The translations under genes and the position numbers were made by a program. The notes under the pieces were generated by a model. It saw only the letters and a list, made by a program, of their open reading frames with translations, was not told the DNA's origin and searched no databases. This document shows, in pieces, positions 10,036 to 35,083 of a stretch of DNA of 64,000 nucleotides (the stretch's first letter is position 1; each line of letters opens with the position of its first letter). The DNA comes from Piezodorus guildinii (lineage: Eukaryota > Arthropoda > Insecta > Hemiptera > Pentatomidae), in assembly GCA_023052935.1 (NCBI GenBank), contig CM041293.1:55044725-55108724 (forward strand), read 5' to 3'.

Positions 10036-10671
10036 TTAGTTTTATTTCTTTTTTCATCTCATCTATTGTTCTTTACAATTATAGAGGAATTTTCACGTGA
10101 ATGTGTCTTTCAGCTGGAGTCTATTACCTTCCTCAAAGTTTTTATTATTTTTTATTACTAGAAAATGATCATTTCTATTAATGTCAGACATATAGCGAAG
10201 GTTATTTATTATTACTTTTTAAAATGAATTTCGGTTATAAAATCCGTATTTAAATAAATGTTTATAGAGATATAAAAAGTTTTATCCCTGGAGTTGAAAG
10301 CGGTGATATACTGGCTAATAATTAAACTGGGAATTGTAAAGGAGACTGCTATAACAAGAGCAAAACGAATGCAGGCGCCCTTGGTACCTCTGAGGACTGG
10401 ATTCAGTCACGACGGCCCCGTCTTCTCTCAGTCTTCATTTTATACCCTTCTTATAACTCCAATTTATTTTGGTGTTTCCCATCTACATCTTGTTCCGGAT
10501 AGCTATGCCTCTTCCGGTTATTGGACGAAGTCTAGATACCTATAATAATACTTCGCCATTCTGTCGACTAAGTAACATTTTCGAGATTTTCGCACTTTTT
10601 TCTAAGTAAATTGCCTTCCGAGAACGTTAAAAAAATTATGTCGATAATTTTTTTTATTTTAAATTCCATTT
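10036..10671. other. Spacer with a less AT-rich segment of unknown origin
   Basis: 10290-10560 is visibly richer in GC than its surroundings and holds an 83-codon frame (10294-10545) that I do not recognise. It may be an old insertion. No start context or homology supports a gene. Confidence 0.35.
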
Positions 10672-11571
10672 TTTACGTTCACTTACTATTTATAGTAAGG
10701 GAAAGTATTGCGATCGTGAAAATTTTCGAATTCCAGTTTTCAACGGAAATACACGTTTTAGGGTCTCCTGAGTCCAAATAACCAAGTCCCGCAAAAAGGT
10801 CTGTGTGTGTGTGTGTGTGTGTGTGTGGTAACTCCTGGGTGGAAACGAAAAGTCCTATGAAACTGAAATTTCATATTTAAGACAACTATACGCCCGAGAC
10901 GTTACAAAACCTTTTTCATCAAAATGAGCTTACCAGAAGAGCCACTTTATACCATGCATTTTGCACTTTTTATCGATTTTCTCGTAAACGGTTCCGACGA
11001 TTTTGATCGAACTCGCTATATCGATGTAAAATTTAATGCGCTTTAATATCGTGCCGGTATTATACTGATAAAAATGGTCTGACAGGGCTTAATTGCCGAT
11101 ATTTACTTAAAGTACCTTTAATTTTGTATATTTTATAAAAATAACCATATGATCTAGTTAGCATTGATAAATAACAGCTAAATATGCAAGTTGAGCAAAT
11201 TTAAAAAGCAACTAAAGGAGAAAACTGAAAAAATATTTTTTGAATGCAATTTTTCGTTTGTGAAGATAATAACAGTAATACACATGTGTAATATACCGTT
11301 GGGAAGCTTAAGATTTAAAAAAAAATATTATCTCATACACAAGCTTTTAAAAGTTAATAGAGAGTGATGAAATGAACATAAAATTAACTGTTCATTTTAG
11401 ATAATAATATAATAGATTTTTTAATAAAAAACATGTTTCTATAGAAATGTAATTTGATTTTTTCTTTAATGGTTTCACTTATTTTTATCTCTAACTGTAT
11501 TAGAAAATCCTTTCATTGATTTTAAAAATTGGGGTAAGTGAAAGTCGTGTGTTGCCCGCTCCAGATTTTTT
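10672..11571 (-). repeat. R1 copy, reverse, about 900 bp
   Basis: Starts with the head CACTTACTATTTATAGTAAG, holds a (TG)n tract at 10803-10828, and ends AAGTGAAAGTCGTGTGTTG, then CCCGCTCCAGA. Confidence 0.8.
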
Positions 11572-12090
11572 TTGTTTTTATTAAGCCTTACCTATCTAAA
11601 TTTTACGCAGATTGATTTAAAAACCGAATTATGTATATAAAAAATATAACTAAATTATCTAATTCTTCTATTTTTGGTTTATTATTTTCAATAATGAATC
11701 TTTGTAATCGACGAAAAAAAAAAAAAAAATACCCCCGCTCAAAATTTGAGAGCTTACGTTTCAAAAATCGTAGAATCCGCATAGCAAAAAAAATCGTTTG
11801 TCCTAATTGATAAATAAAGTAATACAAAAATTTCTTTTAGAGCCATTTGATAATAGAGAATTAAATTGTCGACAGAATGATAAAAGAATCATTTAAATTT
11901 TAACAAATAGGTTTACAACTAGCTGAGATATTGCGTTTTTAAATCAGCGGTAGGGATATGATATTATTCTTTGAATTATTGCCTTTCAACAGCTATATAA
12001 ACAGTTATACCTTAATATTGTTATTTGGAAATAATAAACCATTGTGTAATAATTTTCAGAGTTTTTGGTATCCGATTCCAAAACATCACT
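11572..12090. other. AT-rich spacer between R1 copies
   Basis: No gene recognised. The 74-codon minus-strand frame at 11603-11827 crosses a poly(A) run and looks spurious. Confidence 0.4.
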
Positions 12091-12998
12091 TTTTACTTTC
12101 GCTTACCTATGTATGGAATGTATAGTAAGAGAAAGTATTGCTGTTGTGATAATTTTGGTATTATAGATTTCAACGGAAATACACGTTTTAGGGTCTCCTG
12201 AGTTCAAATTATCAAGTCCTGAAAAAAGTGTGTCTGAGTCCAGCGCGTAAACGAAAAGTCCTATCAAACTGGAATTATCATATTTAAGTCAAATATACGC
12301 CCGAGATGTTACAGTGACTTTTTTTAATAAAATCAGCTAACCAGAAGAGGCACGTTATACCATGAACTTTGCAGGTATTTACGATTTAATGTGTATTTAC
12401 AGTAACGTATTTAAATTATTAAGAACAATAATATACATGTGGAATATACCGTCGGAAAGATTTTAGAAAAGAATATTATCTTATACACAAGCTTCTAAAA
12501 GTTAATAAAGAGTGATGAAAAGCCGATAAAACTAACTGATTACTTTAGATAATAGTATTATAGAATTTTCAATAAAACACATGTTTCTAAATAAAATTGG
12601 AGGCTGATGTCTACTTCACCACTATTTTATTGAAAAAAATATTCGCACTATGTTTCGGCTACAATGCCATCTTCAGGTGCAGTGGAACAACTTAGATTTA
12701 GTGTGGGTAGCTGCTTCCTAGTCAAAACCACATGACCAAATCTTTGACTAGGAAGCAGCTACCCACACTAAATCTAAGTTGTTCCACTGCACCTGAAGAT
12801 GGCATTGTAGCCGAAACATAGTGCGAATATTTTTTTCAATAAAATAGTGGTGAATTTTTGGTTCAATAAAATAGTAGACATCAGACTCCAATTTTATTTA
12901 TAAAAATTTGACCTTCACCTAAAAGAATCTACACCTTAGATACACATGTTTCTATAGAAATTCAATTTAATTAATTCCTTAATAATAGGTTCACGTAT
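12091..12998 (-). repeat. R1 copy, reverse, split by hairpin insertion
   Basis: R1 head at 12097 (CGCTTACCTATGTATGG), with the ACACGTTTTAGGGTCTCCTG and GTTACAGTGAC blocks. It is interrupted at 12590 and resumes at 12942 with the duplicated ACACATGTTTCTA. Confidence 0.75.
12590..12941. mobile_element. 352-bp insertion forming a near-perfect hairpin
   Basis: Arms 12615-12726 and 12743-12854 are exact reverse complements over 112 bp around a 16-bp loop. Outer arms continue with a 20-odd-base interruption on the right. A 13-bp direct repeat, ACACATGTTTCTA, flanks it (12577-12589, 12942-12954). A duplication of that length suggests target-primed reverse transcription rather than a cut-and-paste transposase. 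Each arm holds CTGAAGATGGC...GCCGAAAC. Confidence 0.8.
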
Positions 12999-13957
12999 TA
13001 CTTTCACTTACTATATATAGTAAGGGGAAGTATTGCGATCGTGAAAATTTTTGAATTCCAGTTTTCAACGGAAATACACGTTTTAGGGTCCCTTGAGTCC
13101 AAATAACCAAGTCCCACAAAAAGGTCTGTGTTTGTGTGGTAACTCCAGGGTGGAAACGGTGAGTCCTATGAAACTGAAATTTCATATTTAAGACAACTAT
13201 ACGCCCGAGACGTGACAAAACTTTTTTCATCAAAATTTGCTTACCAGAAGAGGCACTTTATACCATGCATTTTGCACCTTTTTTCGATTTTCTCGAAAAC
13301 GGTTCCGACGAATTTGATTAAACTTGCTATATCGATGTAAAATTTAATGGGCTTTAATATCATGTAAGTTTTATTTGGATAAAAATGGTCTGAAAGGGCT
13401 TAAATGCCGATATTTTAAATTTTCTTCCCCTAAAGTACCTTTAATTTTGTAGATTCAATAATAATAACTAGATTATCTTGTTAACGCTGATGAAAAACAG
13501 GTAAATATATAAATTGAATAAATTCGATACCCAACTAAAGGAGAAAACAGAAAAAATATTTTTTTTAATGCAATTTTTCGTTTTTGAACATAAGAGAGCA
13601 GTAATATACATGTATGATATACCGTTGGAAAGCTAAAGATTTTAGAAAAAATATCATCTCATACACAAGCTTTTAAAAGTTAATAGAGAGTGATGAGAAG
13701 AAGATAAAACTAACTGATTGTTTTAGATAATAATATAAAAGATTTTTTAATAAAACACATGTTTCTGTATAAATTCAATTTGATTAATTCCTTAATTGTT
13801 TCACGTATTTTTATCTCTAACTGTATTTGAAAATTCTTTCATAGGTTTTAAAAATAAAAGTAAGTGAAAGTCTTGTGTTGCCCGCACCAGATTTTTATCT
13901 CTAAATGTATTTGAAAACTTTCAAATCGATTTTAACAGCGGCGGTAAGTGATAATCC
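12999..13957 (-). repeat. R1 copy, reverse, with doubled terminus
   Basis: Head CTTACTATATATAGTAAG at about 13009, full body, first end at about 13861-13895, then a second end beginning GGCGGTAAGTG at about 13941. The tandem array starts inside this second end. Confidence 0.8.
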
Positions 13958-14158
13958 TGTGTTGCCCGCACCAGATTGTTTCCAGTTTAGTTATATTAAA
14001 ATCACAAACGAAATAAAAAGCTAGAGAAAGTTTTGCGATCGTTTTTGGATTTGCTGATTTTGTATTTTTAACACCAATCGATCTTTGGATCAGGCGAACC
14101 AAAATAACCTGGACCCGCAAAAATCTTTGCCAGCGTCTTGCGTTGCTAGCCTTAAAAT

Positions 14159-15365
14159 CTAGTGCCCGCAACACACGACTTTCACTTACCTATGAATATA
14201 TGAAATATATTATATGGAAGAGTATTGCGATAATGAAAATTTTTGAACTCCAGTTTTCAACGGAAATTCGCCCTTGAGTTGAAATAATCAAATCGCGCGA
14301 AAAGGCCTTAGATTTTCTTAAATAGTGCTTCAACGATTTTATTATACCCGGTGCGTCTATTATATTATATTATACCCTGTGTTTAGTTTCTTATAGCTCA
14401 AAATACGATAAGTTGTATACAATTGAAATGTCCTTTTTTTGAGGCATATATGCTTGGGATGTTTTAGTAACAACTTGTCGAACAGAAGTGACAAATTATA
14501 AGAATTACTTAAGACCTAGCATTTTTCACGATTTTCTCAAATACAGCTCGAACTACTTTGGTTAAACTCCTTATAGTCCGGACAATAGAGGTTGAGAAGG
14601 AGGCTTCACCCTACAAAAGGTGCGAAATTTAACTTTATTTTTAATTTGTAGTTTAGGACTATTAGATAGTTCTTGTCATCCCCACCGTTTTGATATGTCC
14701 GCCATCTTGAAAACCCGTCAAAAACTGTCACTTTTTTTTCGATTTTAAGGTGTATTTATAAACATTTAGACAACAAAATTTCTTATAGATTCGGTACAAT
14801 TTTTTTGTAGGTCCAAGCGTATTTGAGAAGGCGAAAATAGAGATTTGGCAAACTTTTTACTTTCGTTCCACTTTATGAAGCAAAAACAAGGTTAAGACTT
14901 GGTCTCAGCGAAACGTTTATAGGATAAAATTTGTACAGATTTTAATGGTTATTAAATTAAATAAACCTAAAAATCGAAAATTTTATTGGGAATAAACTAA
15001 AGGATAAAAACTTAATAAAGTGCCAAGTTTTTGACTGTTTTTTCAAGATTATGGAAGAAGCAGAAGGGTGGCTAGGGGATGACGAAAACTTCGATTAATC
15101 ACTAACTAATGATCCTAAACAATACCAACAAATATAATAAAATGACGCACCTTTTGTAGGATGAACTTCCTCTATTGACTGGGACCATTATCAATGTAAA
15201 ATTTAATTTGCTTTAAATTGTATTTTTAAAATTTAATATCAGTAATATATATATATATATATAAACTGATAATATACTACATATAATAGGTATATACTAT
15301 ATATAATTGGTTCTTAAATTGATTTTAACAGCGGAGGCAAGTGAAATTCGTCACTCACCAGATTT
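14159..15365 (-). repeat. R1 copy with both inverted ends, split by MITE
   Basis: Both termini are present: CTAGTGCCCGCAACACACGA at the left and AAGTGAAATTCGT...CACCAGA at the right. This shows that R1 has inverted ends. The MITE at 14583-15177 interrupts it. Confidence 0.7.
14583..15177. mobile_element. 595-bp MITE (copy 1)
   Basis: Inverted ends CAATAGAGG and ACAAAAGGTGCG lie within about 42 bp of each side. GTCCGGAC on the left and GACTGGGAC on the right may be a diverged target duplication. Non-coding. Confidence 0.75.
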
Positions 15366-17029
15366 TTTTTATATCTGTCATAAGAAGAATTGTTTTTTTT
15401 TTTTTTTTTTAATTTTAAATCTGAGAATAAAAACAAATAGTAGGTATTCAACACTTTATTGATTCAAAACTCTTACTATATTAAAAGTATTTAGATTAGC
15501 TTTCCCATTATTTTCTCAAAGTAATTCTTTCATAAATAGTTGTCAAGTTTGTTTACTGTTTATTTCGATTTAAGTTACTAAACTTTATGATTCCCTACCT
15601 TGGTGGTGCATTAAATATTTTGCATGAAAACAAATGTACTGTTTTGTAAAAAAAAAAGCCGTCAATATTTAGAATGGAAATTGGAAAAAATAGTTGTTTC
15701 GACGAAAATAAATTTTATGTAAAGAAATATACAAGTAATAGCAATAAAATTAATTTGATCTTTATTTTTTGTTAATTGTATTAAAAATATATGTATATTT
15801 TACTAATATAAATTATTATATTATGCGGTTGATGCCGTTAACTATTAAAAACCGGTTAAAATTTGTATCGCATTCTCCTAAAGTGACTATAAACATGCAC
15901 ATTTTCTACTGAAATATGTTAATTGGTGAAAAGAAATTTTTTTTTTTAGGGTTTTGTGTTTCTGATTTTAACACTTTTATCTAAAACTTGAAAACATTTA
16001 AAAGAGTTAGAAAACTATATTTAATACTTACTTTTGGAAAAAAGAAAAAAACTGTTAGATGTATTTTTAACGACTATGATACAAGAATTATATTTTCTTT
16101 ATATTACAATATCTGTATATTTAAACAAATACATGAGATATGCTGATTTAAATAAATAAATAAAATCCCAATAACGTCATTCAAAAGCTCTTAACTGACA
16201 GTGGGCAATTTTTTATTTATTAATGTTTGCAGATTTGTGTTTACTGGTTTACGGTTGCCTTACATACTTACATAATGTTTACTCGTTCATATCATTTTTA
16301 AGACTTTTAATCCTTAAATCTCTCAACGTGTTCAAAGTCGATTGATACAAATATGTCGAAATATAAATTTCGAAAAAAAGGCCTTTGGTACCTTTTGGAA
16401 ATCAACGCCTCAATTCATGAACCTACAGAAAAACCTTCTTCAAACCTTTGGTACTTTCCAATATCCTGATTATCGTGACTTAACTCATTTTGCATTTCTG
16501 GATTACGATAGGAATCTTTGGAGGACTGGGTATCGGGACCAGGGCCGAAGGCATTCAACCTCTTGGTGTAATATTTCCTCTCTTGTGTCTCCTTGGAAAC
16601 ACAAAAAAAAAAAGAGAAAAGAAAAAAAATGCGCTATTGTTCTGAGAAGCCGGTCCAGAAGCCTGTTCTATCCCGATTTATACAAGAGGCTTCTTTTAAC
16701 TACCAATCCCTCTTCATAATGTTCTGAACCGGCCAGCGTCTGTATCTGTCTGCGCTTCAAGGTGCTAACTAGGAGGTCTTCTCCATTCTTGGGGATGGTC
16801 CTGTGAACCACGTCTCTTTTTACAGCTCATTTAATTCACCCCTAACCAAGTTTAGGTCATTAGTTAAGATTATAACTTTAGTTAATGTCATTGCAGAAAT
16901 TAAAATCTAGTGTTAGGAAGAAAACAACTTTCTGGTTTCAATCAATCGAGAAGTTTTAAATAATATTCAATTTTTTTTTTTAGATTAAGTACCAAATCAA
17001 TAGAAGTTATCATCTTTAACAAAACCATG
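15366..17029. other. AT-rich DNA of unknown content (copy 1)
   Basis: Poly(T) and (TA)n tracts, no recognised gene. The 125-codon frame at 16342-16719 crosses an A/G-rich run and is cut to 100 codons in copy 3 by a one-base indel, so it is probably not coding. 16342-16830 is less AT-rich and may be an unrecognised transposon fragment. Confidence 0.4.
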
Positions 17030-17300
17030 ATTTTATGTGGATAGAAGACTAGTCTACTGTTCCTCTGGTCTGGGTTCGAATCCCGGCTGTGTCAGAATAT
17101 AATTTATTCTATATATATAAACTCGGCCCACTCGACTGTATGGAGACCCTCCTGGGGCATACCCAGCCTCTAAAAACTGTATACCTGGCTGAGTGTGATC
17201 TCGGCCTAATCACCTCATTGCACGGCCGTTGGTCTAAAAACAGCACGATTCTTTATATGTACTGATCTCAAGACCCTTCATGGGTTGGAGAGACACAGGT
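17030..17300 (+). repeat. tRNA-derived SINE-like repeat (copy 1)
   Basis: A Pol III B box, GGTTCGAATCC (17073-17083), is followed by a body (17120-17290) that matches the reverse strand at 51293-51480, including GACCCTTCATGGGTTG. The A box is not clear, so the 5' part may be eroded. Confidence 0.6.
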
Positions 17301-17324
17301 ATTCTTTTTTTTTTTCTTTTATTT

Positions 17325-17768
17325 ACCTATATGTGAAATATATATTTAGGGAAAGTATTGCGATCATGAAAATTTACGATTCCTGTATTTGACGGAATTA
17401 TATTTTTTTCGGGTCCCTCAAGGCCAGCCAACTAATGAAATCGTAGAGAAATGGTCTGTGTGTTTATGATAATTCTTGCACAAATCAACTATATAATTCT
17501 TGTGATCAAGACAACTATACGCCCGAGATGTTTATCCAACATTGTATTATTGTAAAAGTTAATCTTATGTATAAAAAATTGTAAAAGTTCGTGTGAAGTG
17601 GCAGTAACTTATTGCTGATTATTATTTTTGCCAATTTTATATTGTTATATTATTATCTTAAGCAGATTTTTCTAACGATACTGAATGAACTTTTTTTTTT
17701 ATAATAGTTCTTAAATTGACTTTAATATCCGATATAAGTGAATGCCGTGTGTAACCCAAACCAGATTT
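17325..17768 (-). repeat. R1 copy, reverse, shortened (copy 1)
   Basis: Head ACCTATATGTGAAATATA with GAAAGTATTGCGATC, end GATATAAGTGAATGCCGTG then ACCAGATT. Central part deleted. Confidence 0.65.
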
Positions 17769-18724
17769 ATTCAAATTTAGAATCAGTTAATCACAATTTA
17801 GGTAATAATTTTGATTTCGATACATTAATTTATATTGCTTCAATATAGGTTTTCATAACTTCCAATTGAGACGTTGATTTCCAAGAGGTACTAAAGGACA
17901 TTTTTTACGAAATTGATTTTTTTACTCATCATATAGTTTTATCTAAATTTTCTATTTGATTTTATCTAATGAACTCTCGAGTCCTTAAAAAACGCGATTT
18001 AAAAATGCAGTCATTTTTTAAGAGTACTAAATACGCAATAATTTTTGTTCCAAATCATTCTAAAAAAAATTATTTCATAACTTTAATATAATGTTATTAT
18101 TATAGTAAAAATATAATTCTAAATTTTAATGCAAATAAGTCCCAAATTAGCTAGTTTAATAATATAGTAATGAGAGATTTTCGCGCATCCTGTAAAATTT
18201 CCTAGAATGGATATAGTACCTTTTGGAAATCAACGCCTTAATTGTGTAGCACGCACATAACATATTCTTGCTATGTAAGATTTTAAAACTTAATTAATGA
18301 ATTATATCTATTTTAAATAAATCACCTTTGTCTCAAATGAATTATCATCTGTAATTTTTGATTTGCTGAGTATAAATATTTAATGGTTTATTGGATTTGA
18401 ATAATTCAGTTAAATGTGAACTTGAAACATTTCTCCTATTTTTCGTTGCAATGCTAACCATTGTCTCTTAGGTATTTTCATTTATTTTTCTGTTACTTTG
18501 AGAATTACAATATTTAAGTAATAAGGTTAATTTTCATCTCTCTGTGCTTTTGTTTCGCTATTATTTATTTATTATTATTAGTCAGGAGAGGAAACCCGCT
18601 GTTCTAGGCTTTCAATATTTATCTACTTATAAAATTGTTGATATCAATGTTTACCTTAAATGTAAACCTATGATACATGAAGTATAAATTAAAATAATTA
18701 ATTATTTCCATATTACAAAAGGAA
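17769..18724. other. AT-rich spacer (copy 1)
   Basis: No gene recognised. 18216-18238 repeats 23 bases found at 16388-16410, so part of this spacer derives from the same unknown repeat. Confidence 0.4.
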
Positions 18725-19020
18725 AAATCTGGTGCACGCAAAACTAGACATTCACTTACCTCTATAATTTTTATTAATTCAACAATTTTTAAACAAAAAT
18801 AAATTGTTAAAGAATTATTTAAATTGGATTTTAATAGAAACATGTGTTTTATTAAATAATCTATTATATTATTATTATTACAATCAGTTTGTTTTATCGG
18901 TTTTCATCACTCTCCGTTAACTTTTACAATAGTATATATAAGATAATATTCTTTCTAAAATCTGGCTTTCCAAAGACTTTTTTTTTTTTTTTTACTCAAA
19001 CTTGGGGAATCGATTTGGTG
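18725..19020 (+). repeat. R1 fragment, forward (copy 1)
   Basis: Starts AAATCTGGTGCACGCAAAACT, includes GAAACATGTGTTTTATTAAA and CATCACTCTCCG, and stops at a poly(T) run. The minus-strand 74-codon frame here is repeat-derived. Confidence 0.65.
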
Positions 19021-19129
19021 TCAAATAAACGGAATTCACCTTAATTTGTAGCTTTTAAATTCAAACGATTTTCGAGATTTTTTAAAAAACCTCTTTTCGA
19101 TTTTTTTTTTTAATAGTAAAATTTGGAAT

Positions 19130-19244
19130 TAATTAATGATAATTGTGTGAATGAGATCTTATATCACTATTACTAATGTTCATATAGAAACACATTGTAA
19201 TATATCTTAATAAATAAATATTATATTAAAAAAAAAAATAAATA
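19130..19244 (+). repeat. LINE-type 3' tail with poly(A) (copy 1)
   Basis: GTGTGAATGAGATCTTATATC...AATAAATATT followed by A-rich sequence. The same tail occurs at 50437-50530, so it is the 3' end of a retroposon family. Confidence 0.6.
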
Positions 19245-19707
19245 ACTAGGACTTCCATTTGACAAACGCCTATCATGGAATCCCCCCACTTGACTGAAAC
19301 GACAAGAAACTGCTCACCGCTTTTGGTTACTTCAGCACTTACTCGACAGACGCTCTAATTTCCACTTAACTACAAAATACTCATCTACATGACCATCATA
19401 AGACCTATCTGGACTTACGGGGTTGAGCTTTCGGGCTCGACTAAACCATCAAATTCTTCCCTTCTTCGATCCTTACAATCCAAAATCCTTCTAAAAATCC
19501 TAAAGGCTCCTTACTTCCTCACGAACAAGCTCATCCATAAAGATCTTAATATTCCTTATGTAGCTGATTTAGCCCGAACCAGGTACCAATCCTTCCATGA
19601 CAAACTCCACTCCCACTCTAACCCACTAGTTTCAATTCTAGCTTCCTCTTTCAATTCTCCGAGGCGTCTGAGAAGAAGATGGCCTCGAGACATTTTAGTT
19701 TAGATTA
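19245..19707 (+). pseudogene. Jockey-type LINE RT C-terminus, decayed (copy 1)
   Basis: The frame encodes the region after the RT palm: LGLPFDKRLSWNPP, a stop and two frame changes, then ILIYMTIIRPIWTYGVEL and a 104-codon run (19389-19703) with SLQSKILLKILKAP and NKLIHKDLNIPYV. This order is typical of the C-terminal end of Jockey-clade ORF2, which copies LINE RNA at the target site. It is 5' truncated and broken. Its 3' UTR and poly(A) resume at 23383-23510 beyond the inserted LTR element. Confidence 0.8.
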
Positions 19708-19884
19708 TGCTATGTTGAAAAGGTGTAAATTAATGTATAGAACAATTGAAAAAGAAAGAAAATACACTTATATTTGAACAGAAAAATAATTCACAAGAAA
19801 CGTAACACTCTAATTCCAACTGGTAACTTAACATATGTTTTCTTCTATATTTAATTCTTATTAATAATCAAAATAAACATAACA
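19708..19884 (-). repeat. 3' LTR (copy 1)
   Basis: 177 bp, plus-strand ends TGCTATGTTG and CATAACA. It differs from the other LTR at CGTAACACTC versus CGTAACGCTC. Confidence 0.9.
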
Positions 19885-21705
19885 ACTCTCCGCGGCTTAA
19901 TATAAAACGTAATCGGAGAGTGTGTTGGTCTTCTATGATGTCTTTGTGATCTGCGAAGAGGCGGGTTTTCTTGTTGACCGTCTACATCAGCTGCAGTTGC
20001 AGGACCGGCAGCTACAGGTTCAGGTTCAGGTTCAGGCTCAGTTGTTGAAGTCCCTTCTGCTGGTACAGTGGCACTGTTAGATGGTTGCCGGAGTTGTTTG
20101 TCCCAGAAGGTAATGGTATTACCGTTTTTCATACTTGGTGCTACCTCTTTAGAAGGGTGTACTCCTGGCAGTTCTGGTATGTATACCAGGCGCAATTGAT
20201 CTATGTGTCGCTTTAGAGTATACCCATCTCCGTCTAATATGATTAGATAATGTAATTTGCCAAATGTTTTTAGCACCGTTCCAAATCTCCAAGACGGCTT
20301 GTTGTTAGAGTACCATCTAGCTTGTACCCTGTCACCTATTTTAAGTTTTCGAACTTTTTTGTTTAAATACATTGTACTAGGTTTATCAAAACATCTAGGT
20401 GGTTTAAGAGCGTCTAATTTTATATTGATTCTTCTATTAAGATATAATTCTGCTGGTGACTTTCCACAAGCCAAAGGCGTCGAACGATATCGCAGCAGAA
20501 TTTCTTGTACTTTGGTCTGAAGGGGCAGTGTCAGTTTTGACATTGCCTTTAACTTACTTTTCAGAGTTTGGACATTCCTCTCTGCCAACCCATTTGTCGC
20601 TGGATGTCCCGGAGCTATAAACTTTTGTTTGATTCCCGCATTGAAACAAAATTTGATAAACCCTTCGCTCTTGAAAATTGATGCGTTATCGGAGACTAAT
20701 ATTCTTGGAAATCCATGAATGTAAAATATGGATTGAAGCAAATTGATTGTTCCTTGAGACGTAGGAGTTTCTCTTGTTAATCGGACTTCCACCCATCTTG
20801 ATTTCGCGTCCACCAGTACCAAAAAATAATGGTTTTCGTATGGTCCAGCGTAATCTATGTGAACTCTCTCGAAATTTTCTGTCGGCTCCTCCCAGGAATG
20901 GATTGGAGCCTTCTCCGGATTTTTCCTAACGCTGGCACATTCTGGACAAGACTTCACAAGCTTCTCAATTTCTTTGTCAATATTTTTCCAATAAACATAC
21001 CTTCTTGCTAGCTGTTTCATTTTCACTATACCTGTGTGTGTATGATGTAGTTCCTTTAACACCTCTTCTCGAAGAGCATGCGGTATTACAATCCGTTGAC
21101 CTTTGAAAATAATCCCATTTTGTAGATAATATTCTGAATCATAGCAATCCTTATTTAAAAGGTCGCATTTAATTTTTGACAACTCTTCATCTTTTGCTGT
21201 TTCCTCTGCTAGTGTTTTGTAATTCAATGATTCATTTGAAATGTTGTATACGAGTTCATTTGAAATTAAATCGACTTCTGTATTTATCTCTTCTTCGATT
21301 GATGTTGTGTCTTCCTGCAGTGGTGCTCTTGAAAGGTAGTCTGCATGGACATTTTCTTCAGCTGGACGATGTTGAATCTTGTAATCGAAATTGGTTAGCC
21401 ATGCTGCATATCTGAGTAATCTAGCAGAAGTCATTGCGGGTAGGTTTGTACTTTCATGAAAAATTCTACTTAATGGTTTGTTATCAGTTACTAAGGTGAA
21501 GGTTTTGCCAAATAAGAAATAATAAAATTTTTTCAAGGAAAATACTATGGCGAGTGCCTCTTTGTCCAACTGACTATAGTTCATTTCAGATTTTGAAAGA
21601 GACCTAGAAACAAATGCGATTGGTTTTTCTATACCTTGGACTACATGTGATAAAACACCTGCTAGGCCAGTTGGAGATGCGTCAGTGGCTCTTGTAAGAA
21701 TCTTT
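19851..21705 (-). CDS. pol: RNase H-integrase remnant of Pol (copy 1)
   Basis: The frame opens at 21705 just after a stop. Its first Met is at 21584, but RNase H homology already starts upstream (ATDASPTGLAGVL). Residues from that Met: RNase H Glu9 (DKEAL), Asp34 (VTDNKPL) and Asp82 (ADYLS). Integrase zinc finger is His180, His183, Cys213, Cys216, and its core is Asp244, Asp299 and Glu335, a complete D,D(35)E. A GPY/F-type C-terminal module lies at about 390-430 and a Pro-Glu repeat plus Arg-rich end follow. Protease and RT are missing. Expression would need a -1 frameshift from the preceding ORF or its own start. A one-base deletion near 19922 gives copy 1 a longer C-terminus than copies 2 and 3. 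Confidence 0.88.
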
Positions 21706-22681
21706 TAACCATATGGTAACTTGTTAAACCTTTGTTTCTTACCAATTTGTAAGTGTGCTTCATAAAGTCACACATCATCTCAGGAATTTGAGAGCTTGGG
21801 GTTATATTGTTACTATTTGTAAAAAACTTATGAACAAATTGACGTAAGCCAGGAACATTTCTCAATTTTTCTGTTACATTACTTACACTTCTTGGATTCA
21901 TATGAATTAATTTGCCCCCTACCTTATTTGTACCAGCTCTTAAAGATTGTAATCTCTTAGTAAGGAATGCATTCCAATGTGCCGGTTGAATATTCTTACA
22001 GATTGTTAGCAAAATGATATGAGCAACCATAAATGATATATCTAGAGGAACTGGAGGCCCTCCGACACTAGTATAGACAAAAGGAACCGCGGAAGCTACT
22101 AATTCTCCTTTTTTCTGTTCCAGAAATTCCATGTATTGTTCATTAAAATTGGGGTGAGCTGACAAGCAGCTTAAAAATAAAATCATTGGTTCGCAATTAT
22201 CATTTACAACCCAAGTCCCATTAGCGAAGCTTATAAATTTTGTCTTATAGACCCTCAAAGTATATTCATCAATCGGGTAAACAGCTCCATAACATGTAGG
22301 AGAAGCATCACAAATAGGTATTCTAGGCATTTCTGCATCACTAACAAATGGCCATATGGGGCAATTATGTTCATCTAATTGAACATTTGGATTCTTGTAG
22401 TACAAGATTAACAACTTTACATGGTAGCTTGTGATATAGTAACCTGCACTTTCACAAAGAACTGTGTAATATTGATTTGGAGTAATAGCTGCTTCTCCTA
22501 CAACTAGTTGAATACATAAAATTTTTACATTGGTTGAACTTTTATCTATATTTGGGTTTACAGTTAGAAATTGATTATTCTCCCCTACTCTCAAGTTAAT
22601 CATACATTCACGGTCCTCTATCACGGTTTCTATGATGTCTGCAGTTATCATATCCATATTATTAACTGCTTGCTGCTCCAT
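21662..22681 (-). CDS. Captured ORF of unknown family, possible viral nucleoprotein relic (copy 1)
   Basis: 339 intact codons sit where gag, protease and RT should be. The first Met (MEQQAVNNMD) follows an AT-rich leader. There is no CCHC knuckle, no protease motif and no capsid pattern I recognise. The centre is rich in hydrophobic helices (for example DISFMVAHIILLTICKNI) followed by a basic stretch (LTKRLQSLRAGTNKVGGK). Size, helical character and a long 5' leader fit a nucleoprotein from a non-segmented negative-strand RNA virus such as a chuvirus or relative, a group whose N genes are often found as endogenous copies in arthropods. This assignment is an inference by general character only. 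The last dozen or so codons run out of frame into the RNase H sequence and end at TAG. Confidence 0.7.
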   Translation of the reverse strand: MEQQAVNNMDMITADIIETVIEDRECMINLRVGENNQFLTVNPNIDKSSTNVKILCIQLVVGEAAITPNQYYTVLCESAGYYITSYHVKLLILYYKNPNVQLDEHNCPIWPFVSDAEMPRIPICDASPTCYGAVYPIDEYTLRVYKTKFISFANGTWVVNDNCEPMILFLSCLSAHPNFNEQYMEFLEQKKGELVASAVPFVYTSVGGPPVPLDISFMVAHIILLTICKNIQPAHWNAFLTKRLQSLRAGTNKVGGKLIHMNPRSVSNVTEKLRNVPGLRQFVHKFFTNSNNITPSSQIPEMMCDFMKHTYKLVRNKGLTSYHMVKRFLQEPLTHLQLA

Positions 22682-22901
22682 TTTGAATAAATATGATAGT
22701 GTAAAAATTTAGAAGTATAATTAATCACTAAAGTTGAAATGAGGAAAATGAATTGAATAAAATAATATCTAATGAATTTATTATGAACTACTAAATAAAT
22801 AAATTTAATAAAATCTAGCTAATAAAATAGAATAAACAAAATACTTGAATATAATTTATTAGTTCTAGACCAAATTCAACATTCAGTCTAAATTCAAATC
22901 A

Positions 22902-23187
22902 ATTTTCGAACAACGGATTGGTTGCGTACCATTACAGTGTAAATTGAGATTGCGTGAAAATGTAAAACCCGTATGTTTAAAATCAAGAGAATTGCCATTT
23001 GCTCTAAAAACCAAAGTAGAAGAAGAACTTAAAAATCTTGAAAGAGATGGAATCATAACACCAGTTCAGGTTAGTGATTGGGCATCACCGTTGGTTGTCA
23101 TACCAAAGCCCGATGGTTCGGTAAGGCTTTGTGTTGATTACAAAGTTGCTGTCAATCCACATCTCCTCTCAGCACATTATCCCATCC
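22902..23187 (+). pseudogene. Inverted RT N-terminal fragment of the same element family (copy 1)
   Basis: On the plus strand, opposite to the rest of the element: IFEQRIGCVPLQ, then KTKVEEELKNLERDGIITPV, SDWASPLVVIPKPDGSVRLC and VDYKVAVNPHLLSAHYPI. This is the fingers part of a Ty3/gypsy RT and stops before the catalytic Asp residues. It ends inside the primer-binding site, which shares TCCCATC with the expected RT sequence. Confidence 0.85.
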
Positions 23188-23196
23188 TCGTCGCCA
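23180..23196 (-). promoter_or_regulatory. Primer-binding site, tRNA-Ser type (copy 1)
   Basis: Plus strand TCCCATCCTCGTCGCCA equals the 3' end, with CCA, of arthropod-type tRNA-Ser(GCU) as I recall it. The minus strand TGGCGACGAGGATGGGA starts 4 bases inside the LTR, the normal place for a primer site, and fixes the element orientation as minus. Confidence 0.8.
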
Positions 23197-23200
23197 ATTT

Positions 23201-23377
23201 TGCTATGTTGAAAAGGTGTAAATTAATGTATAGAACAATTGAAAAAGAAAGAAAATACACTTATATTTGAACAGAAAAATAATTCACAAGAAACGTAACG
23301 CTCTAATTCCAACTGGTAACTTAACATATGTTTTCTTCTATATTTAATTCTTATTAATAATCAAAATAAACATAACA
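23201..23377 (-). repeat. 5' LTR (copy 1)
   Basis: 177 bp, same as 19708-19884 except one visible base. Followed by target duplication GATTA. Confidence 0.9.
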
Positions 23378-23382
23378 GATTA

Positions 23383-23510
23383 TCTATTGGAGTGCTGCAA
23401 ATGGGCAGTTTTTGTTCATGTCTTTTTCATGTGTTTTATCTAACAGCTAATTTACTAGATGTATTAATCAATACAGTTGTAAATAAATAAATAATAGATA
23501 GAGGAAAAAA
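23383..23510 (+). repeat. Jockey-type LINE 3' UTR, continued (copy 1)
   Basis: TCTATTGGAGTGC...GTAAATAAATAAATAATAG and a poly(A) tract continue the LINE relic across the LTR insertion. Confidence 0.65.
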
Positions 23511-24956
23511 AAAAAGAAATTAACGATGATTTTTTTTCTCTGATTTTCAGGAGTCAAAGGCATAAAAAAAAATATGATCATGTTTTTTAAGCGAAAAGCC
23601 AATTTTTAGTGGAAGAAAGAAATCTTAAATATATATTTTTTTTAACCTTTTTGAAAAGTGTCAATCATCGATTTGAAACCGATTTCAGAAAATGTCTTTT
23701 AAACTCTACTATATACAGTAATTTTTAATGAAGTTGAACAATATGAAAAAAAAACTTACTATTTTCTAAAATCTTGCATTTAACTCATATTTCTTATTAT
23801 ATTTGAAAAATGTGTAAACAATTCTTTCACTCCAAAAATTCATCATTCCATTTATTATAAAACATTTTCAATCATTTTACTACAACACGATTGGATAAAA
23901 GTTATGTTTTTGAAACACGCGCCAGGCTACTAGCGCTCTATAACGCCGTCTATTAAGTCACTATCAATCATATGTTCTAAGGTATTACTTGTCATCAGAG
24001 GTATTCTGTATATATTTTCCTCGGGAGGATGTATTTTCAGTAAAAAAAAAAATACATTTTTCTACGCATTTTTCGATAATGTATAAGTTTATGGAAAAAG
24101 ATCAGTTTTTATTTTTTTTTTCATATTGTTCCACTACTCCGAAAAATTCGAAAACAAATCTTCAGTTCAGAGGAGCATAAAAGACATTTTCTGACAAAAT
24201 TTGGTGTGACACCTTTTTTCGGAACTATCACGTTTAACCAAGATTCTAAACTTTGGTTGGATGCGGGTTATTTGATTTTCACCATTAAAACGTGGATTCT
24301 AGATATACTGTAGATTCCTTCTGGATGGGAGCCATCTTTTGCAAATCTCTTGGTGGGTGAAGTTCATTTAGTGAAAGCCCAAGTTGGGCTTGCGAACCTC
24401 CGAGTCGGCCTCGAGTCTCAGACGGCCATAAAAAATTTTATGACACATTTGATGAGCCAGTTTTAGGGAGTTCTCCTTCTCCCCCCACCATTCCCATTCT
24501 CTTTGCCATAAAACCGTTATTGAATTCGGAAACGGTTGGGTATCATCCCATTTAATAATTTTAAATTAAAGACAACTCTCAGTAATGGTTTGTTCACGTT
24601 TTTTTGTTGATCTTGGTGTTTTTTAAAGCTTGTTCGCGATCAGCGACTCCCTTTGATACAGTTAGTAAATATAAACCTGAAGATTCCATGCTAGTACCAT
24701 CCATCCTCTCCATACATTATTATATCAAATGACTACTGTCTGAGTATAAATATCCGAGTTCAGATTTAACATATTTTTTATCTACAGTACAAGAATGTTT
24801 TTTAGATAAATATTTATCTACAAAGTTGTAAAAGACAGTGTTAATTGACATATAGGGCATAAACTTAAGTGATCATTATACGTAAAATTTTAATCTTGTT
24901 ATATTATTTAATATAGAACTAATGATTCTAACGAAAATTAATACGATTCTTTACAC
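23511..24956. other. Unrecognised DNA (copy 1)
   Basis: AT-rich with a less AT-rich block at 24210-24500. No recognised gene, although the minus strand holds short open stretches. The 63-codon frame at 23989-24180 is not supported. Confidence 0.35.
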
Positions 24957-25472
24957 AGTTTACTTTAACTTACCTTTATATGAAATATATAGTAAGAAAA
25001 AGTATTGCGATCGAAAAAATTTTTGAATTCCAGTTTTCAACGGAAATATACGTTTTAGGGCCCTCTGAGTCCAAATAACCACACTCCGAAAAATGTTCTG
25101 TGTGTGTGTGTGTGTGTGGTAAGTCTAGCGCAAAAGCGAAAAGTTTTACGGATATGAAATTTCATATTTAATACAACTTTACGCCCGAGATGTTACAGTA
25201 GCTTTTTCATCAAAAACGGCTCTAACGATTTTGATTAAACACGCTGTATCGATGTCAAATTTGATGAGCTTTAATATGATATAGGTCACATTCTGATTGA
25301 TATAGTCTGACAGGGCTTAAATGTTGATTTCTTAAATTTTCTTCCTATAAACTGTCTTTAATTGTGTACATTCTAAAAGACTAACCATATCATCTTAATG
25401 ACATTGATGAAGTAGGCTAAATATACATGTTGGACGAATTTGATGACCTACTGAAGGTTAAAAGCGAAAAAC

Positions 25473-25526
<54 letters not shown>

Positions 25527-25662
25527 TATTAACAGTAATTTAGACGTATATAAATTGGAAAAAGAAATATTTCAGAAAAAATATTATTTATGCACCAAGT
25601 TGTAAAAGTTAATATAATGTGACGAATAGAGAATAAACCTATGTTTATGTGTAATAAACCTA
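24957..25662 (-). repeat. R1 copy, reverse, with 51-base poly(T) (copy 1)
   Basis: Head AACTTACCTTTATATGAAATA, (TG)n at 25100-25116, and the TGACAGGGCTTAAATG block. A run of 51 T occupies 25475-25525. The body is cut at the tandem-unit junction. Confidence 0.75.
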
Positions 25663-26287
25663 TGTGTTGCCCGCACCAGATTGTTTCCAGTTTAGTTATA
25701 TTAAAATCACAAACGAAATAAAAAGCTAGAGAAAGTTTTGCGATCGTTTTTGGATTTGCTGATTTTGTATTTTTAACACCAATCGATCTTTGGATCAGGC
25801 GAACCAAAATAACCTGGACCCGCAAAAATCTTTGCCAGCGTCTTGCGTTGCTAGCCTTAAAATCTAGTGCCCGCAACACACGACTTTCACTTACCTATGA
25901 ATATATGAAATATATTATATGGAAGAGTATTGCGATAATGAAAATTTTTGAACTCCAGTTTTCAACGGAAATTCGCCCTTGAGTTGAAATAATCAAATCG
26001 CGCGAAAAGGCCTTAGATTTTCTTAAATAGTGCTTCAACGATTTTATTATACCCGGTGCGTCTATTATATTATATTATACCCTGTGTTTAGTTTCTTATA
26101 GCTCAAAATACGATAAGTTGTATACAATTGAAATGTCCTTTTTTTGAGGCATATATGCTTGGGATGTTTTAGTAACAACTTGTCGAACAGAAGTGACAAA
26201 TTATAAGAATTACTTAAGACCTAGCATTTTTCACGATTTTCTCAAATACAGCTCGAACTACTTTGGTTAAACTCCTTATAGTCCGGA

Positions 26288-26882
26288 CAATAGAGGTTGA
26301 GAAGGAGGCTTCACCCTACAAAAGGTGCGAAATTTAACTTTATTTTTAATTTGTAGTTTAGGACTATTAGATAGTTCTTGTCATCCCCACCGTTTTGATA
26401 TGTCCGCCATCTTGAAAACCCGTCAAAAACTGTCACTTTTTTTTCGATTTTAAGGTGTATTTATAAACATTTAGACAACAAAATTTCTTATAGATTCGGT
26501 ACAATTTTTTTGTAGGTCCAAGCGTATTTGAGAAGGCGAAAATAGAGATTTGGCAAACTTTTTACTTTCGTTCCACTTTATGAAGCAAAAACAAGGTTAA
26601 GACTTGGTCTCAGCGAAACGTTTATAGGATAAAATTTGTACAGATTTTAATGGTTATTAAATTAAATAAACCTAAAAATCGAAAATTTTATTGGGAATAA
26701 ACTAAAGGATAAAAACTTAATAAAGTGCCAAGTTTTTGACTGTTTTTTCAAGATTATGGAAGAAGCAGAAGGGTGGCTAGGGGATGACGAAAACTTCGAT
26801 TAATCACTAACTAATGATCCTAAACAATACCAACAAATATAATAAAATGACGCACCTTTTGTAGGATGAACTTCCTCTATTG
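26288..26882. mobile_element. 595-bp MITE (copy 2)
   Basis: Counterpart of 14583-15177 with the same CAATAGAGG inverted ends. Confidence 0.75.
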
Positions 26883-28734
26883 ACTGGGACCATTATCAAT
26901 GTAAAATTTAATTTGCTTTAAATTGTATTTTTAAAATTTAATATCAGTAATATATATATATATATATAACTGATAATATACTACATATAATAGGTATATA
27001 CTATATATAATTGGTTCTTAAATTGATTTTAACAGCGGAGGCAAGTGAAATTCGTCACTCACCAGATTTTTTTTATATCTGTCATAAGAAGAATTGTTTT
27101 TTTTTTTTTTTTTAATTTTAAATCTGAGAATAAAAACAAATAGTAGGTATTCAACACTTTATTGATTCAAAACTCTTACTATATTAAAAGTATTTAGATT
27201 AGCTTTCCCATTATTTTCTCAAAGTAATTCTTTCATAAATAGTTGTCAAGTTTGTTTACTGTTTATTTCGATTTAAGTTACTAAACTTTATGATTCCCTA
27301 CCTTGGTGGTGCATTAAATATTTTGCATGAAAACAAATGTACTGTTTTGTAAAAAAAAAAGCCGTCAATATTTAGAATGGAAATTGGAAAAAAATAGTTG
27401 TTTCGACGAAAATAAATTTTATGTAAAGAAATATACAAGTAATAGCAATAAAATTAATTTGATCTTTATTTTTTGTTAATTGTATTAAAAATATATGTAT
27501 ATTTTACTAATATAAATTATTATATTATGCGGTTGATGCCGTTAACTATTAAAAACCGGTTAAAATTTGTATCGCATTCTCCTAAAGTGACTATAAACAT
27601 GCACATTTTCTACTGAAATATGTTAATTGGTGAAAAGAAATTTTTTTTTTTAGGGTTTTGTGTTTCTGATTTTAACACTTTTATCTAAAACTTGAAAACA
27701 TTTAAAAGAGTTAGAAAACTATATTTAATACTTACTTTTGGAAAAAAGAAAAAAACTGTTAGATGTATTTTTAACGACTATGATACAAGAATTATATTTT
27801 CTTTATATTACAATATCTGTATATTTAAACAAATACATGAGATATGCTGATTTAAATAAATAAATAAAATCCCAATAACGTCATTCAAAAGCTCTTAACT
27901 GACAGTGGGCAATTTTTTATTTATTAATGTTTGCAGATTTGTGTTTACTGGTTTACGGTTGCCTTACATACTTACATAATGTTTACTCGTTCATATCATT
28001 TTTAAGACTTTTAATCCTTAAATCTCTCAACGTGTTCAAAGTCGATTGATACAAATATGTCGAAATATAAATTTCGAAAAAAAGGCCTTTGGTACCTTTT
28101 GGAAATCAACGCCTCAATTCATGAACCTACAGAAAAACCTTCTTCAAACCTTTGGTACTTTCCAATATCCTGATTATCGTGACTTAACTCATTTTGCATT
28201 TCTGGATTACGATAGGAATCTTTGGAGGACTGGGTATCGGGACCAGGGCCGAAGGCATTCAACCTCTTGGTGTAATATTTCCTCTCTTGTGTCTCCTTGG
28301 AAACACAAAAAAAAAAAGAGAAAAGAAAAAAAATGCGCTATTGTTCTGAGAAGCCGGTCCAGAAGCCTGTTCTATCCCGATTTATACAAGAGGCTTCTTT
28401 TAACTACCAATCCCTCTTCATAATGTTCTGAACCGGCCAGCGTCTGTATCTGTCTGCGCTTCAAGGTGCTAACTAGGAGGTCTTCTCCATTCTTGGGGAT
28501 GGTCCTGTGAACCACGTCTCTTTTTACAGCTCATTTAATTCACCCCTAACCAAGTTTAGGTCATTAGTTAAGATTATAACTTTAGTTAATGTCATTGCAG
28601 AAATTAAAATCTAGTGTTAGGAAGAAAACAACTTTCTGGTTTCAATCAATCGAGAAGTTTTAAATAATATTCAATTTTTTTTTTTAGATTAAGTACCAAA
28701 TCAATAGAAGTTATCATCTTTAACAAAACCATGA
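26883..28734. other. R1 end and AT-rich DNA (copy 2)
   Basis: Counterpart of 15178-17029: R1 right end to about 27068, then unknown AT-rich sequence. The 125-codon frame at 28046-28423 is identical to copy 1 and not supported as a gene. Confidence 0.4.
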
Positions 28735-29005
28735 TTTTATGTGGATAGAAGACTAGTCTACTGTTCCTCTGGTCTGGGTTCGAATCCCGGCTGTGTCAGA
28801 ATATAATTTATTCTATATATATAAACTCGGCCCACTCGACTGTATGGAGACCCTCCTGGGGCATACCCAGCCTCTAAAAAACTGTATACCTGGCTGAGTG
28901 TGATCTCGGCCTAATCACCTCATTGCACGGCCGTTGGTCTAAAAACAGCACGATTCTTTATATGTACTGATCTCAAGACCCTTCATGGGTTGGAGAGACA
29001 CAGGT
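28735..29005 (+). repeat. tRNA-derived SINE-like repeat (copy 2)
   Basis: B box GGTTCGAATCC at 28777-28787. One extra A against copy 1 after AGCCTCTAAAAA. Confidence 0.6.
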
Positions 29006-30945
29006 ATTCTTTTTTTTTTTCTTTTATTTACCTATATGTGAAATATATATTTAGGGAAAGTATTGCGATCATGAAAATTTACGATTCCTGTATTTGACGG
29101 AATTATATTTTTTTCGGGTCCCTCAAGGCCAGCCAACTAATGAAATCGTAGAGAAATGGTCTGTGTGTTTATGATAATTCTTGCACAAATCAACTATATA
29201 ATTCTTGTGATCAAGACAACTATACGCCCGAGATGTTTATCCAACATTGTATTATTGTAAAAGTTAATCTTATGTATAAAAAATTGTAAAAGTTCGTGTG
29301 AAGTGGCAGTAACTTATTGCTGATTATTATTTTTGCCAATTTTATATTGTTATATTATTATCTTAAGCAGATTTTTCTAACGATACTGAATGAACTTTTT
29401 TTTTTATAATAGTTCTTAAATTGACTTTAATATCCGATATAAGTGAATGCCGTGTGTAACCCAAACCAGATTTATTCAAATTTAGAATCAGTTAATCACA
29501 ATTTAGGTAATAATTTTGATTTCGATACATTAATTTATATTGCTTCAATATAGGTTTTCATAACTTCCAATTGAGACGTTGATTTCCAAGAGGTACTAAA
29601 GGACATTTTTTACGAAATTGATTTTTTTACTCATCATATAGTTTTATCTAAATTTTCTATTTGATTTTATCTAATGAACTCTCGAGTCCTTAAAAAACGC
29701 GATTTAAAAATGCAGTCATTTTTTAAGAGTACTAAATACGCAATAATTTTTGTTCCAAATCATTCTAAAAAAAATTATTTCATAACTTTAATATAATGTT
29801 ATTATTATAGTAAAAATATAATTCTAAATTTTAATGCAAATAAGTCCCAAATTAGCTAGTTTAATAATATAGTAATGAGAGATTTTCGCGCATCCTGTAA
29901 AATTTCCTAGAATGGATATAGTACCTTTTGGAAATCAACGCCTTAATTGTGTAGCACGCACATAACATATTCTTGCTATGTAAGATTTTAAAACTTAATT
30001 AATGAATTATATCTATTTTAAATAAATCACCTTTGTCTCAAATGAATTATCATCTGTAATTTTTGATTTGCTGAGTATAAATATTTAATGGTTTATTGGA
30101 TTTGAATAATTCAGTTAAATGTGAACTTGAAACATTTCTCCTATTTTTCGTTGCAATGCTAACCATTGTCTCTTAGGTATTTTCATTTATTTTTCTGTTA
30201 CTTTGAGAATTACAATATTTAAGTAATAAGGTTAATTTTCATCTCTCTGTGCTTTTGTTTCGCTATTATTTATTTATTATTATTAGTCAGGAGAGGAAAC
30301 CCGCTGTTCTAGGCTTTCAATATTTATCTACTTATAAAATTGTTGATATCAATGTTTACCTTAAATGTAAACCTATGATACATGAAGTATAAATTAAAAT
30401 AATTAATTATTTCCATATTACAAAAGGAAAAATCTGGTGCACGCAAAACTAGACATTCACTTACCTCTATAATTTTTATTAATTCAACAATTTTTAAACA
30501 AAAATAAATTGTTAAAGAATTATTTAAATTGGATTTTAATAGAAACATGTGTTTTATTAAATAATCTATTATATTATTATTATTACAATCAGTTTGTTTT
30601 ATCGGTTTTCATCACTCTCCGTTAACTTTTACAATAGTATATATAAGATAATATTCTTTCTAAAATCTGGCTTTCCAAAGACTTTTTTTTTTTTTTTTAC
30701 TCAAACTTGGGGAATCGATTTGGTGTCAAATAAACGGAATTCACCTTAATTTGTAGCTTTTAAATTCAAACGATTTTCGAGATTTTTTAAAAAACCTCTT
30801 TTCGATTTTTTTTTTTAATAGTAAAATTTGGAATTAATTAATGATAATTGTGTGAATGAGATCTTATATCACTATTACTAATGTTCATATAGAAACACAT
30901 TGTAATATATCTTAATAAATAAATATTATATTAAAAAAAAAAATA
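29006..30945. other. R1 fragments, spacer and LINE tail (copy 2)
   Basis: Counterpart of 17301-19244: R1 reverse copy to about 29473, AT-rich spacer, R1 forward fragment about 30430-30725, and LINE-type tail with poly(A) about 30835-30945. Confidence 0.55.
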
Positions 30946-31412
30946 AATAACTAGGACTTCCATTTGACAAACGCCTATCATGGAATCCCCCCACTTGACT
31001 GAAACGACAAGAAACTGCTCACCGCTTTTGGTTACTTCAGCACTTACTCGACAGACGCTCTAATTTCCACTTAACTACAAAATACTCATCTACATGACCA
31101 TCATAAGACCTATCTGGACTTACGGGGTTGAGCTTTCGGGCTCGACTAAACCATCAAATTCTTCCCTTCTTCGATCCTTACAATCCAAAATCCTTCTAAA
31201 AATCCTAAAGGCTCCTTACTTCCTCACGAACAAGCTCATCCATAAAGATCTTAATATTCCTTATGTAGCTGATTTAGCCCGAACCAGGTACCAATCCTTC
31301 CATGACAAACTCCACTCCCACTCTAACCCACTAGTTTCAATTCTAGCTTCCTCTTTCAATTCTCCGAGGCGTCTGAGAAGAAGATGGCCTCGAGACATTT
31401 TAGTTTAGATTA
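30946..31412 (+). pseudogene. Jockey-type LINE RT C-terminus, decayed (copy 2)
   Basis: Same stop and frame changes as copy 1, with the 104-codon run at 31094-31408. The shared lesions show that decay preceded the 11.7-kb amplification. Confidence 0.8.
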
Positions 31413-31601
31413 TGCTATGTTGAAAAGGTGTAAATTAATGTATAGAACAATTGAAAAAGAAAGAAAATACACTTATATTTGAACAGAAAAATAATTCACA
31501 AGAAACGTAACACTCTAATTCCAACTGGTAACTTAACATATGTTTTCTTCTATATTTAATTCTTATTAATAATCAAAATAAACATAACAACTCTCCGCGG
31601 C

Positions 31602-34893: not shown

Positions 34894-35083
34894 TCGTCGC
34901 CAATTTTGCTATGTTGAAAAGGTGTAAATTAATGTATAGAACAATTGAAAAAGAAAGAAAATACACTTATATTTGAACAGAAAAATAATTCACAAGAAAC
35001 GTAACGCTCTAATTCCAACTGGTAACTTAACATATGTTTTCTTCTATATTTAATTCTTATTAATAATCAAAATAAACATAACA

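Follow-up and report, generated by a model that had tools for sequence, protein, structure and literature searches.

A defective Ty3/gypsy element of Piezodorus guildinii carries a captured foreign gene of likely viral origin

Results

Structure of the chimeric element

The window analysed here is a 64,000-nt stretch of the genome of the pentatomid Piezodorus guildinii (assembly GCA_023052935.1, contig CM041293.1; C2:55044725-55108724). At positions 19708-23377, on the minus strand, it contains a retrotransposon with a pair of 177-bp long terminal repeats (LTRs) that differ by one mismatch, a GATTA target-site duplication (TSD), a primer site, an RNase H-integrase frame and a 339-codon open reading frame (ORF). 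The element is present three times in the window, within an 11.7-kb tandem array. The features of copy 1, in window coordinates, are as follows; RT stands for reverse transcriptase, and L036 is an intact copy of the family elsewhere in the genome.

19703-19707, no strand: target-site duplication GATTA, left copy
19708-19884, minus: 3′ LTR, 177 bp; identical LTRs are present elsewhere in the host genome
19851-21584, minus: ORF for RNase H (from an internal ATG) and integrase; compared with copies 2 and 3, a 1-nt gap alters the C-terminal end here
21687-21690, minus: point at which the captured gene meets RNase H, with the 4-nt microhomology AGCC
21687-22681, minus: foreign, virus-like coding sequence that was captured: codons 1-331, against 466 codons for the gene at C2:58.03 Mb
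21662-22681, minus: 339-codon ORF as now read; the last 8 codons are out-of-frame RNase H
22682-22871, minus: 190-nt AT-rich leader, starting with GGTCTAGAAC as in the solo copy at C2:58.03 Mb
22872-22877, minus: 6-nt filler GAATTT, with no match to the parent element or the solo copy
22878-23185, plus: inverted 308-bp RT piece of the LTR family, sense on the plus strand, 99.35% identical to L036 2042-1735
23179-23196, minus: primer site, 18 nt matching tRNA-Ser(GCT); its last 7 nt, ATGGGAT, also belong to the inverted RT piece
23201-23377, minus: 5′ LTR, 177 bp
23378-23382, no strand: target-site duplication GATTA, right copy

The LTRs, TSD, primer site and RNase H-integrase frame had been recognised in an earlier note made from the sequence alone, and the coordinates that it gave for the element proved exact. 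Pfam matches RNase H, H2C2 and rve in the ORF at 19851-21584, in which the first ATG comes only from the middle of RNase H onward. The integrase ORF of copy 2 shows D-35-E spacing, and in copy 1 the 1-nt gap changes the integrase tail (577 versus 562 codons).

The foreign ORF bears out the description in that note of a frame with an AT-rich leader and no Gag or zinc-knuckle signature: we looked for CCHC and DTG/DSG motifs and found none, and neither Pfam nor motifs gave a match to a Ty3/gypsy Gag. At 339 codons, the ORF compares with a longest stop-free run of 157 codons in 1000 simulated 3.5-kb sequences. The frame is open as the note had it, but it is not an intact gene, since the foreign gene is truncated relative to its 466-codon relative and the 8 terminal codons, the first of them split by the join, derive from RNase H. 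Likewise, the proposed replacement of gag, protease and RT holds for Gag, protease and most of RT, but 308 bp of RT survive in inverted orientation (Ty3 RT match with E 2.8e-5; 65% identity to a K02A2.6-like relative) and form, with RNase H-integrase, the remaining coding content of the element.

The window element is a defective derivative of a Ty3/gypsy (Metaviridae) family and, lacking Gag, protease and most of RT, would be mobile in trans only. The single LTR difference in 177 bp agrees with the earlier view of a young element; the insertion is thus too young for an open frame to indicate use.

Intact parents of the element

We searched the host assembly (1.20 Gb, 434 contigs), only the best candidates being scored in each genome search. 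The LTR gave 40 scored matches among 137 candidates, and ten further family elements, picked by eye from the list of LTR matches, were retrieved. Both LTRs and a 5-bp TSD are present in all ten. Five of them measure 4.66-4.71 kb, each with the 13-nt primer site, and three of these five keep a single 1412-codon frame. Their LTR pairs differ by 0, 0, 0, 1 and 3 bases, indicating that the family is young. Two other members, at C2:48.45 Mb (L042, 5.44 kb) and C7:3.50 Mb (L043, 6.16 kb), exceed the canonical 4.7 kb, and a further one (L038) is a simple deletion derivative with no foreign part.

The intact copies have the LTRs, short TSD, primer site and RT-RNase H-integrase order of Ty3/gypsy elements. 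In L036, the sole copy scanned, there are matches to Retrotrans_gag, zf-CCHC, aspartic protease, RVT_1, RNase H and integrase, some below the Pfam cut-off. The named integrase relatives, among 120 listed of 1178, are mostly K02A2.6-like. The captured gene has no match in the map of L036, and in a six-frame genome search none falls by position at any intact family copy. The comparison of host LTR copies with and without the ORF that the earlier note had proposed therefore yields both kinds: intact 4.7-kb parents without it, and a second insertion, L041, with part of it.

It is hardly credible that the 339-codon ORF represents a diverged form of the element's own Gag without a zinc knuckle: the ORF does occupy the Gag position in sense orientation, but L036 has a Gag in frame with Pol that does not match the ORF, and a relative of the gene exists outside any LTR element. 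We rejected this identity, the intact family members examined having an ordinary Gag.

Joins and tRNA-templated bases

Comparison with L036 resolves the element, numbered from its 5′ end, into pieces whose alignments run slightly beyond the true joins. Positions 1-194 are the same in both, 193-500 correspond to the inverted RT (L036 2042-1735), 507-1697 resemble the solo gene (91%) and 1679-3670 resemble L036 2712-4704; the L036-like pieces are 99.3-99.5% identical. The RT piece is followed by the GAATTT filler and then by the leader, and at its far end the gene meets RNase H at AGCC.

The primer site carries a further signature. In eight of the ten retrieved elements, the 13-nt tRNA match (TGGCGACGAGGAT) is followed by TAAAGTC, whereas the window element, L039 and L041 continue with GGGAT, like the tRNA itself. 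Specifically, in L039 (C1:29446126-29448234, 2.1 kb) the tRNA-templated primer site is joined straight to RNase H, with a 580-codon open frame. L039 reads RNase H next where the parent has CGCATTTG, so that its GGG is tRNA-derived, and its identical LTRs point to a recent insertion. The 5′ end of L041 (C2:37768457-37770725, 2.27 kb) comprises 44 nt complementary to tRNA-Ser(GCT), in which only base 19 is mismatched; we take this base to stand opposite tRNA position 58. Methyl-A at tRNA position 58 is the usual stop of plus-strand strong-stop synthesis. The tRNA 3′ end has eight exact matches in the host genome and its reversed control none, and all four loci examined were called tRNA-Ser(gct) by ARAGORN.

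The last 7 nt of the window primer site, ATGGGAT, also occur in the antisense strand of RT, which would provide a ready mispriming site. There the parent RT reads HYPIPR, and YPI recurs in 12 of 17 relatives picked by motif search from the 120 listed.

A composite assembled after integration by DNA rearrangement rather than by reverse transcription is very improbable. The locus, lying in a tandem array, does rearrange if the assembly is correct, but L039 and L041 carry tRNA bases beyond the primer site, have different joins and possess TSDs of their own, as expected of plus-strand strong-stop DNA. Capture of a foreign RNA by the LTR element during reverse transcription is strongly supported by the intact parents, the tRNA-derived joins in sister elements, the microhomologies, the TSD and the relative of the gene elsewhere. 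The element shows the marks of LTR-mediated retroposition, namely a foreign RNA copy between two LTRs, a microhomology join and one TSD, and we take this to be the mechanism of capture.

Copies and source of the foreign gene

A six-frame search of the assembly with the 339-aa protein found five places: the three array copies, L004/L040 and L005/L041. At L040 (4680-6080, minus strand; C2:58.03 Mb, 3 Mb from the window), a solo, intact 466-codon ORF with a 204-nt leader lies outside any LTR element of the gypsy family. It directly follows a non-LTR element that breaks off close to the end of the RT domain, and this arrangement of a leader adjoining a truncated element looks as if L040 were also a chimera. 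The window and L040 copies both begin at GGTCTAGAAC despite their unrelated surroundings, in keeping with an RNA whose 5′ end is fixed. They are identical at 319/333 residues and 942/999 bases, with a synonymous divergence (dS) of 0.248, a nonsynonymous divergence (dN) of 0.018 and a ratio of 0.072 over 333 codons, the last two of which lie at or beyond the join (Nei-Gojobori, own script). L041 starts 16 nt farther in and carries the leader and codons 1-186, followed by integrase; its leader and gene are 99.45% identical to those of the window over 729 nt.

Among the best candidates scored, no close full-length source of the captured gene was found in the host assembly, L040 standing at dS 0.25, and the simplest assumption is therefore an RNA source outside the assembled genome. 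Over 21701-22895, which spans the gene, its leader and a further 24 nt, the observed/expected (o/e) CpG ratio is 0.34. A ratio this low occurs in none of 743 overlapping comparison windows; the closest of them, at 0.37, lies over a presumably env-like ORF described below. The L040 ORF has a ratio of 0.25, as against 0.81-0.86 in the flanking sequence and 0.85 in the canonical element. No intron is found within the matched parts of the gene.

In a set of 5.8 billion proteins, the window protein has no match at E<=10, in a search that misses distant relatives. The same set does yield the 1178 integrase relatives, of which the 120 listed include named insect proteins, and the null result therefore weighs against a host gene or a common Gag. 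It is weak against a fast-evolving viral protein, because the search needs exact 5-residue words.

These data bear on whether the captured RNA was a host mRNA, from an ordinary or domesticated gene, making the insertion an LTR-mediated host retrocopy. LTR elements are reported to make such retrocopies (PMC5408686 and PMC8232201), and the intact 466 codons of L040 and the dN/dS of 0.07 between copies would suit a host gene. We nevertheless regard this origin as quite unlikely in view of the lack of a close full-length source among the candidates scored, the lack of a relative in a protein set rich in insect proteins, the intronless matched parts and a CpG level far under that of the host. The captured RNA is instead likely of viral origin, given that no close genomic source was found, the low dN/dS, the CpG depletion, the protein-set null and the shared 5′ start; the gene points to a probably undescribed virus of the host.

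Candidate identity of the encoded protein

Pfam, whose coverage of arthropod nucleoprotein (N) families was unchecked, returned no family for the 327-, 339- and 466-aa proteins. The window protein has no match in IMG/VR, and a PDB sequence search gave a single chance-level row. We therefore turn to fold comparison, for which the single-sequence AlphaFold models are poor (pLDDT 33.5 at full length, 43.6 for residues 178-320). With the model of residues 178-320, a Foldseek search of the PDB ranks measles N first (probability 0.57; E 0.26) and mumps N second (probability 0.60; E 0.27), and Mononegavirales N proteins occupy 7 of the best 50 of 109 rows (raw share). In BFVD, 9 of the best 50 of 169 rows (raw share) bear the name N or p40 and come from Mononegavirales or Jingchuvirales, including one from an insect arli-related virus.

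Some observations weigh against a nucleoprotein mRNA. No N match of this low-confidence C-terminal model has a significant E-value, VIA-align does not place N proteins above unrelated rows for the same model, and the L040 gene is followed in the sense strand by 27 T, which an mRNA origin leaves unexplained.

The models suggest a nucleoprotein of a negative-strand virus, which we hold as the leading reading and not as a result. Of the earlier proposal that a negative-strand nucleoprotein mRNA was captured, then, the RNA capture stands firmly and a viral source is likely, but the N identity is only suggested: the structure prediction it called for does rank measles and mumps N first, but with neither significance nor support from VIA-align. 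Nothing favours in particular the Jingchuvirales, which it named for comparison alongside Mononegavirales; one of the nine BFVD N rows belongs to that order. That the captured gene is viral but other than a negative-strand nucleoprotein, taken up by the same mechanism, is unlikely; no significant sequence or fold match names the family, but Mononegavirales N proteins lead the weak fold matches of the C-terminal model.

Proposed mechanism

We consider it probable that a young K02A2.6-like Ty3/gypsy element and a foreign RNA, most likely a negative-strand-virus nucleoprotein mRNA, together gave rise to a chimeric cDNA. In what would have been a particle of the LTR family, minus-strand DNA may have copied the LTR, integrase and RNase H and then switched, at the observed AGCC join, to codon 331 of the foreign RNA, whose polarity we infer; the join and the common 5′ start suggest that the strand ran on to the 5′ end of this RNA. 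Plus-strand strong-stop DNA, tipped with the tRNA copy still readable in the primer site, would have missed the normal primer-site complement and paired through its last 7 nt with RT, and its extension would have yielded the inverted RT piece, whose join is observed and whose place in the order of events is conjectural. The two 3′ ends would then have been joined over the 6-nt filler, and integrase would have inserted the product, leaving the GATTA duplication seen today. The locus would later have been triplicated, or so rendered by the assembly.

LTR-bounded copies of the foreign gene stand at two loci, the window and L041, by re-copying or by a second capture. The earlier note held that the gene could spread with the element; L041, a second LTR insertion with part of the gene, speaks for this, but an independent second capture is equally possible. 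The chances appear even between derivation of L041 from a window-type chimeric RNA, the chimera having been retrotransposed, and two independent captures of one viral strain. Re-copying is favoured by the near identity of leader and gene and by an integrase variant (column 931) common to the window and L041 and otherwise seen only in L045 among nine copies. Against it, L041 is without the inverted RT piece, its joins differ, and three window-only substitutions (columns 79, 275 and 515) are absent from it; moreover, had a single sublineage made two captures within one infected germ line, the products would resemble each other.

Tentatively, failed plus-strand transfer with tRNA-templated bases might be a repeatable route for RNA-virus genes and, in addition, the nucleoprotein-bearing defective element might have been re-copied in trans in this host, which would have brought a viral gene into the life cycle of the retrotransposon, a combination that we find conceivable but doubtful. 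The extra tRNA-templated bases are a searchable signature of aberrant strong-stop transfer, testable across genomes.

Tandem array and remainder of the window

The array in which the element lies has the following units.

13958-25662, no strand: array unit 1, holding the element described above
25663-37365, no strand: array unit 2, with the element at 31413-35083
37366-46528, no strand: array unit 3, cut within the inverted RT piece and without a 5′ LTR

The unit is repeated 2.8 times, with 20,879 aligned columns at 99.88% and 9,171 at 99.85%. The differences between units are mostly 1-nt gaps, and the array may thus reflect a recent duplication or be partly a product of the assembly. Because the three window copies lie in one near-identical array, we count them as a single insertion.

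A second gypsy-type element occupies 3-4455 on the plus strand. Its RT-RNase H-integrase frame, recognised with Pfam and 976 aa long, is already open where the window begins, and it precedes an intact 545-aa ORF that carries an RSKR-GLINGLG stretch. We take this ORF to be env-like and the stretch to be furin-like; the 545-aa protein has no Pfam match and only chance-level PDB rows. The CpG o/e falls as low as 0.37 over the 3′ part of this ORF. Diverged tandem or satellite-like repeats fill 52073-59303, with periods of 362-432 bp in the TRF-reported part. A family of repeats in inverted and direct orientation, roughly 0.2-0.9 kb long and with 76-94% identity, is present on both sides of the array (9286-13896 and 62335-63276).

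Comparison with known systems

RNA viruses of this kind make no DNA, and the way in which their genes enter animal germ lines has often been deduced from an association with LTR elements. RNA-virus genes in or near arthropod LTR elements are already known from Anakin, the Aedes integrations and Jingchuvirales endogenous viral elements (EVEs). In addition, Geuking et al. in 2009 reportedly found chimeric cDNA of an IAP retrotransposon and an arenavirus in mouse cells (infected animals or cells). Our reading resembles that case in copy-choice between an LTR element and the RNA of a negative-strand virus, and differs in that the chimera stands in an assembled genome with both LTRs and a TSD. In the literature, we found no report of a gypsy element in which a probable viral gene takes the place of gag-protease-RT and the joins are resolved by comparison with intact copies of the parent, nor of a tRNA signature common to three defective elements.

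LTR-mediated retroposition (Tan et al. 2016, as described in PMC5408686 and PMC8232201) concerns host mRNAs. The present element shares with it template switching at microsimilarities, an LTR-flanked product and insertion by integrase (PMC5408686, PMC8232201). Unlike those cases, the present one has a probably viral source, which the assembly did not yield, and a 5′ join that involves tRNA-tipped plus-strand strong-stop DNA and an inverted RT piece.

In Anakin, a chuvirus glycoprotein accompanies BEL-Pao elements, which may be complete and likely autonomous (PMC7642597). Both systems would place a gene of a negative-strand RNA virus family within an arthropod LTR element, but in the present case it stands in place of Gag, protease and RT, and the Ty3/gypsy element that carries it is defective. 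Arthropod Jingchuvirales EVEs are flanked by Gypsy and BEL-Pao elements, two of them lying within complete transposon boundaries, and the authors saw no clear sign of glycoprotein capture by Gypsy; the Gypsy chimera described here, by contrast, is resolved at its joins (PMC10084718).

In Aedes, RNA-virus sequences lie near Ty3/gypsy and Pao elements, template switching has been proposed, and AeBunya1 is embedded in a full-length Pao-Bel element (PMC5497376). The Aedes integrations are mainly a matter of enrichment and flanking (PMC5497376), whereas here comparison with intact parents gives the joins base by base, which is possible because those parents, the chimera, a second chimera and a solo copy of the gene all reside in one genome.

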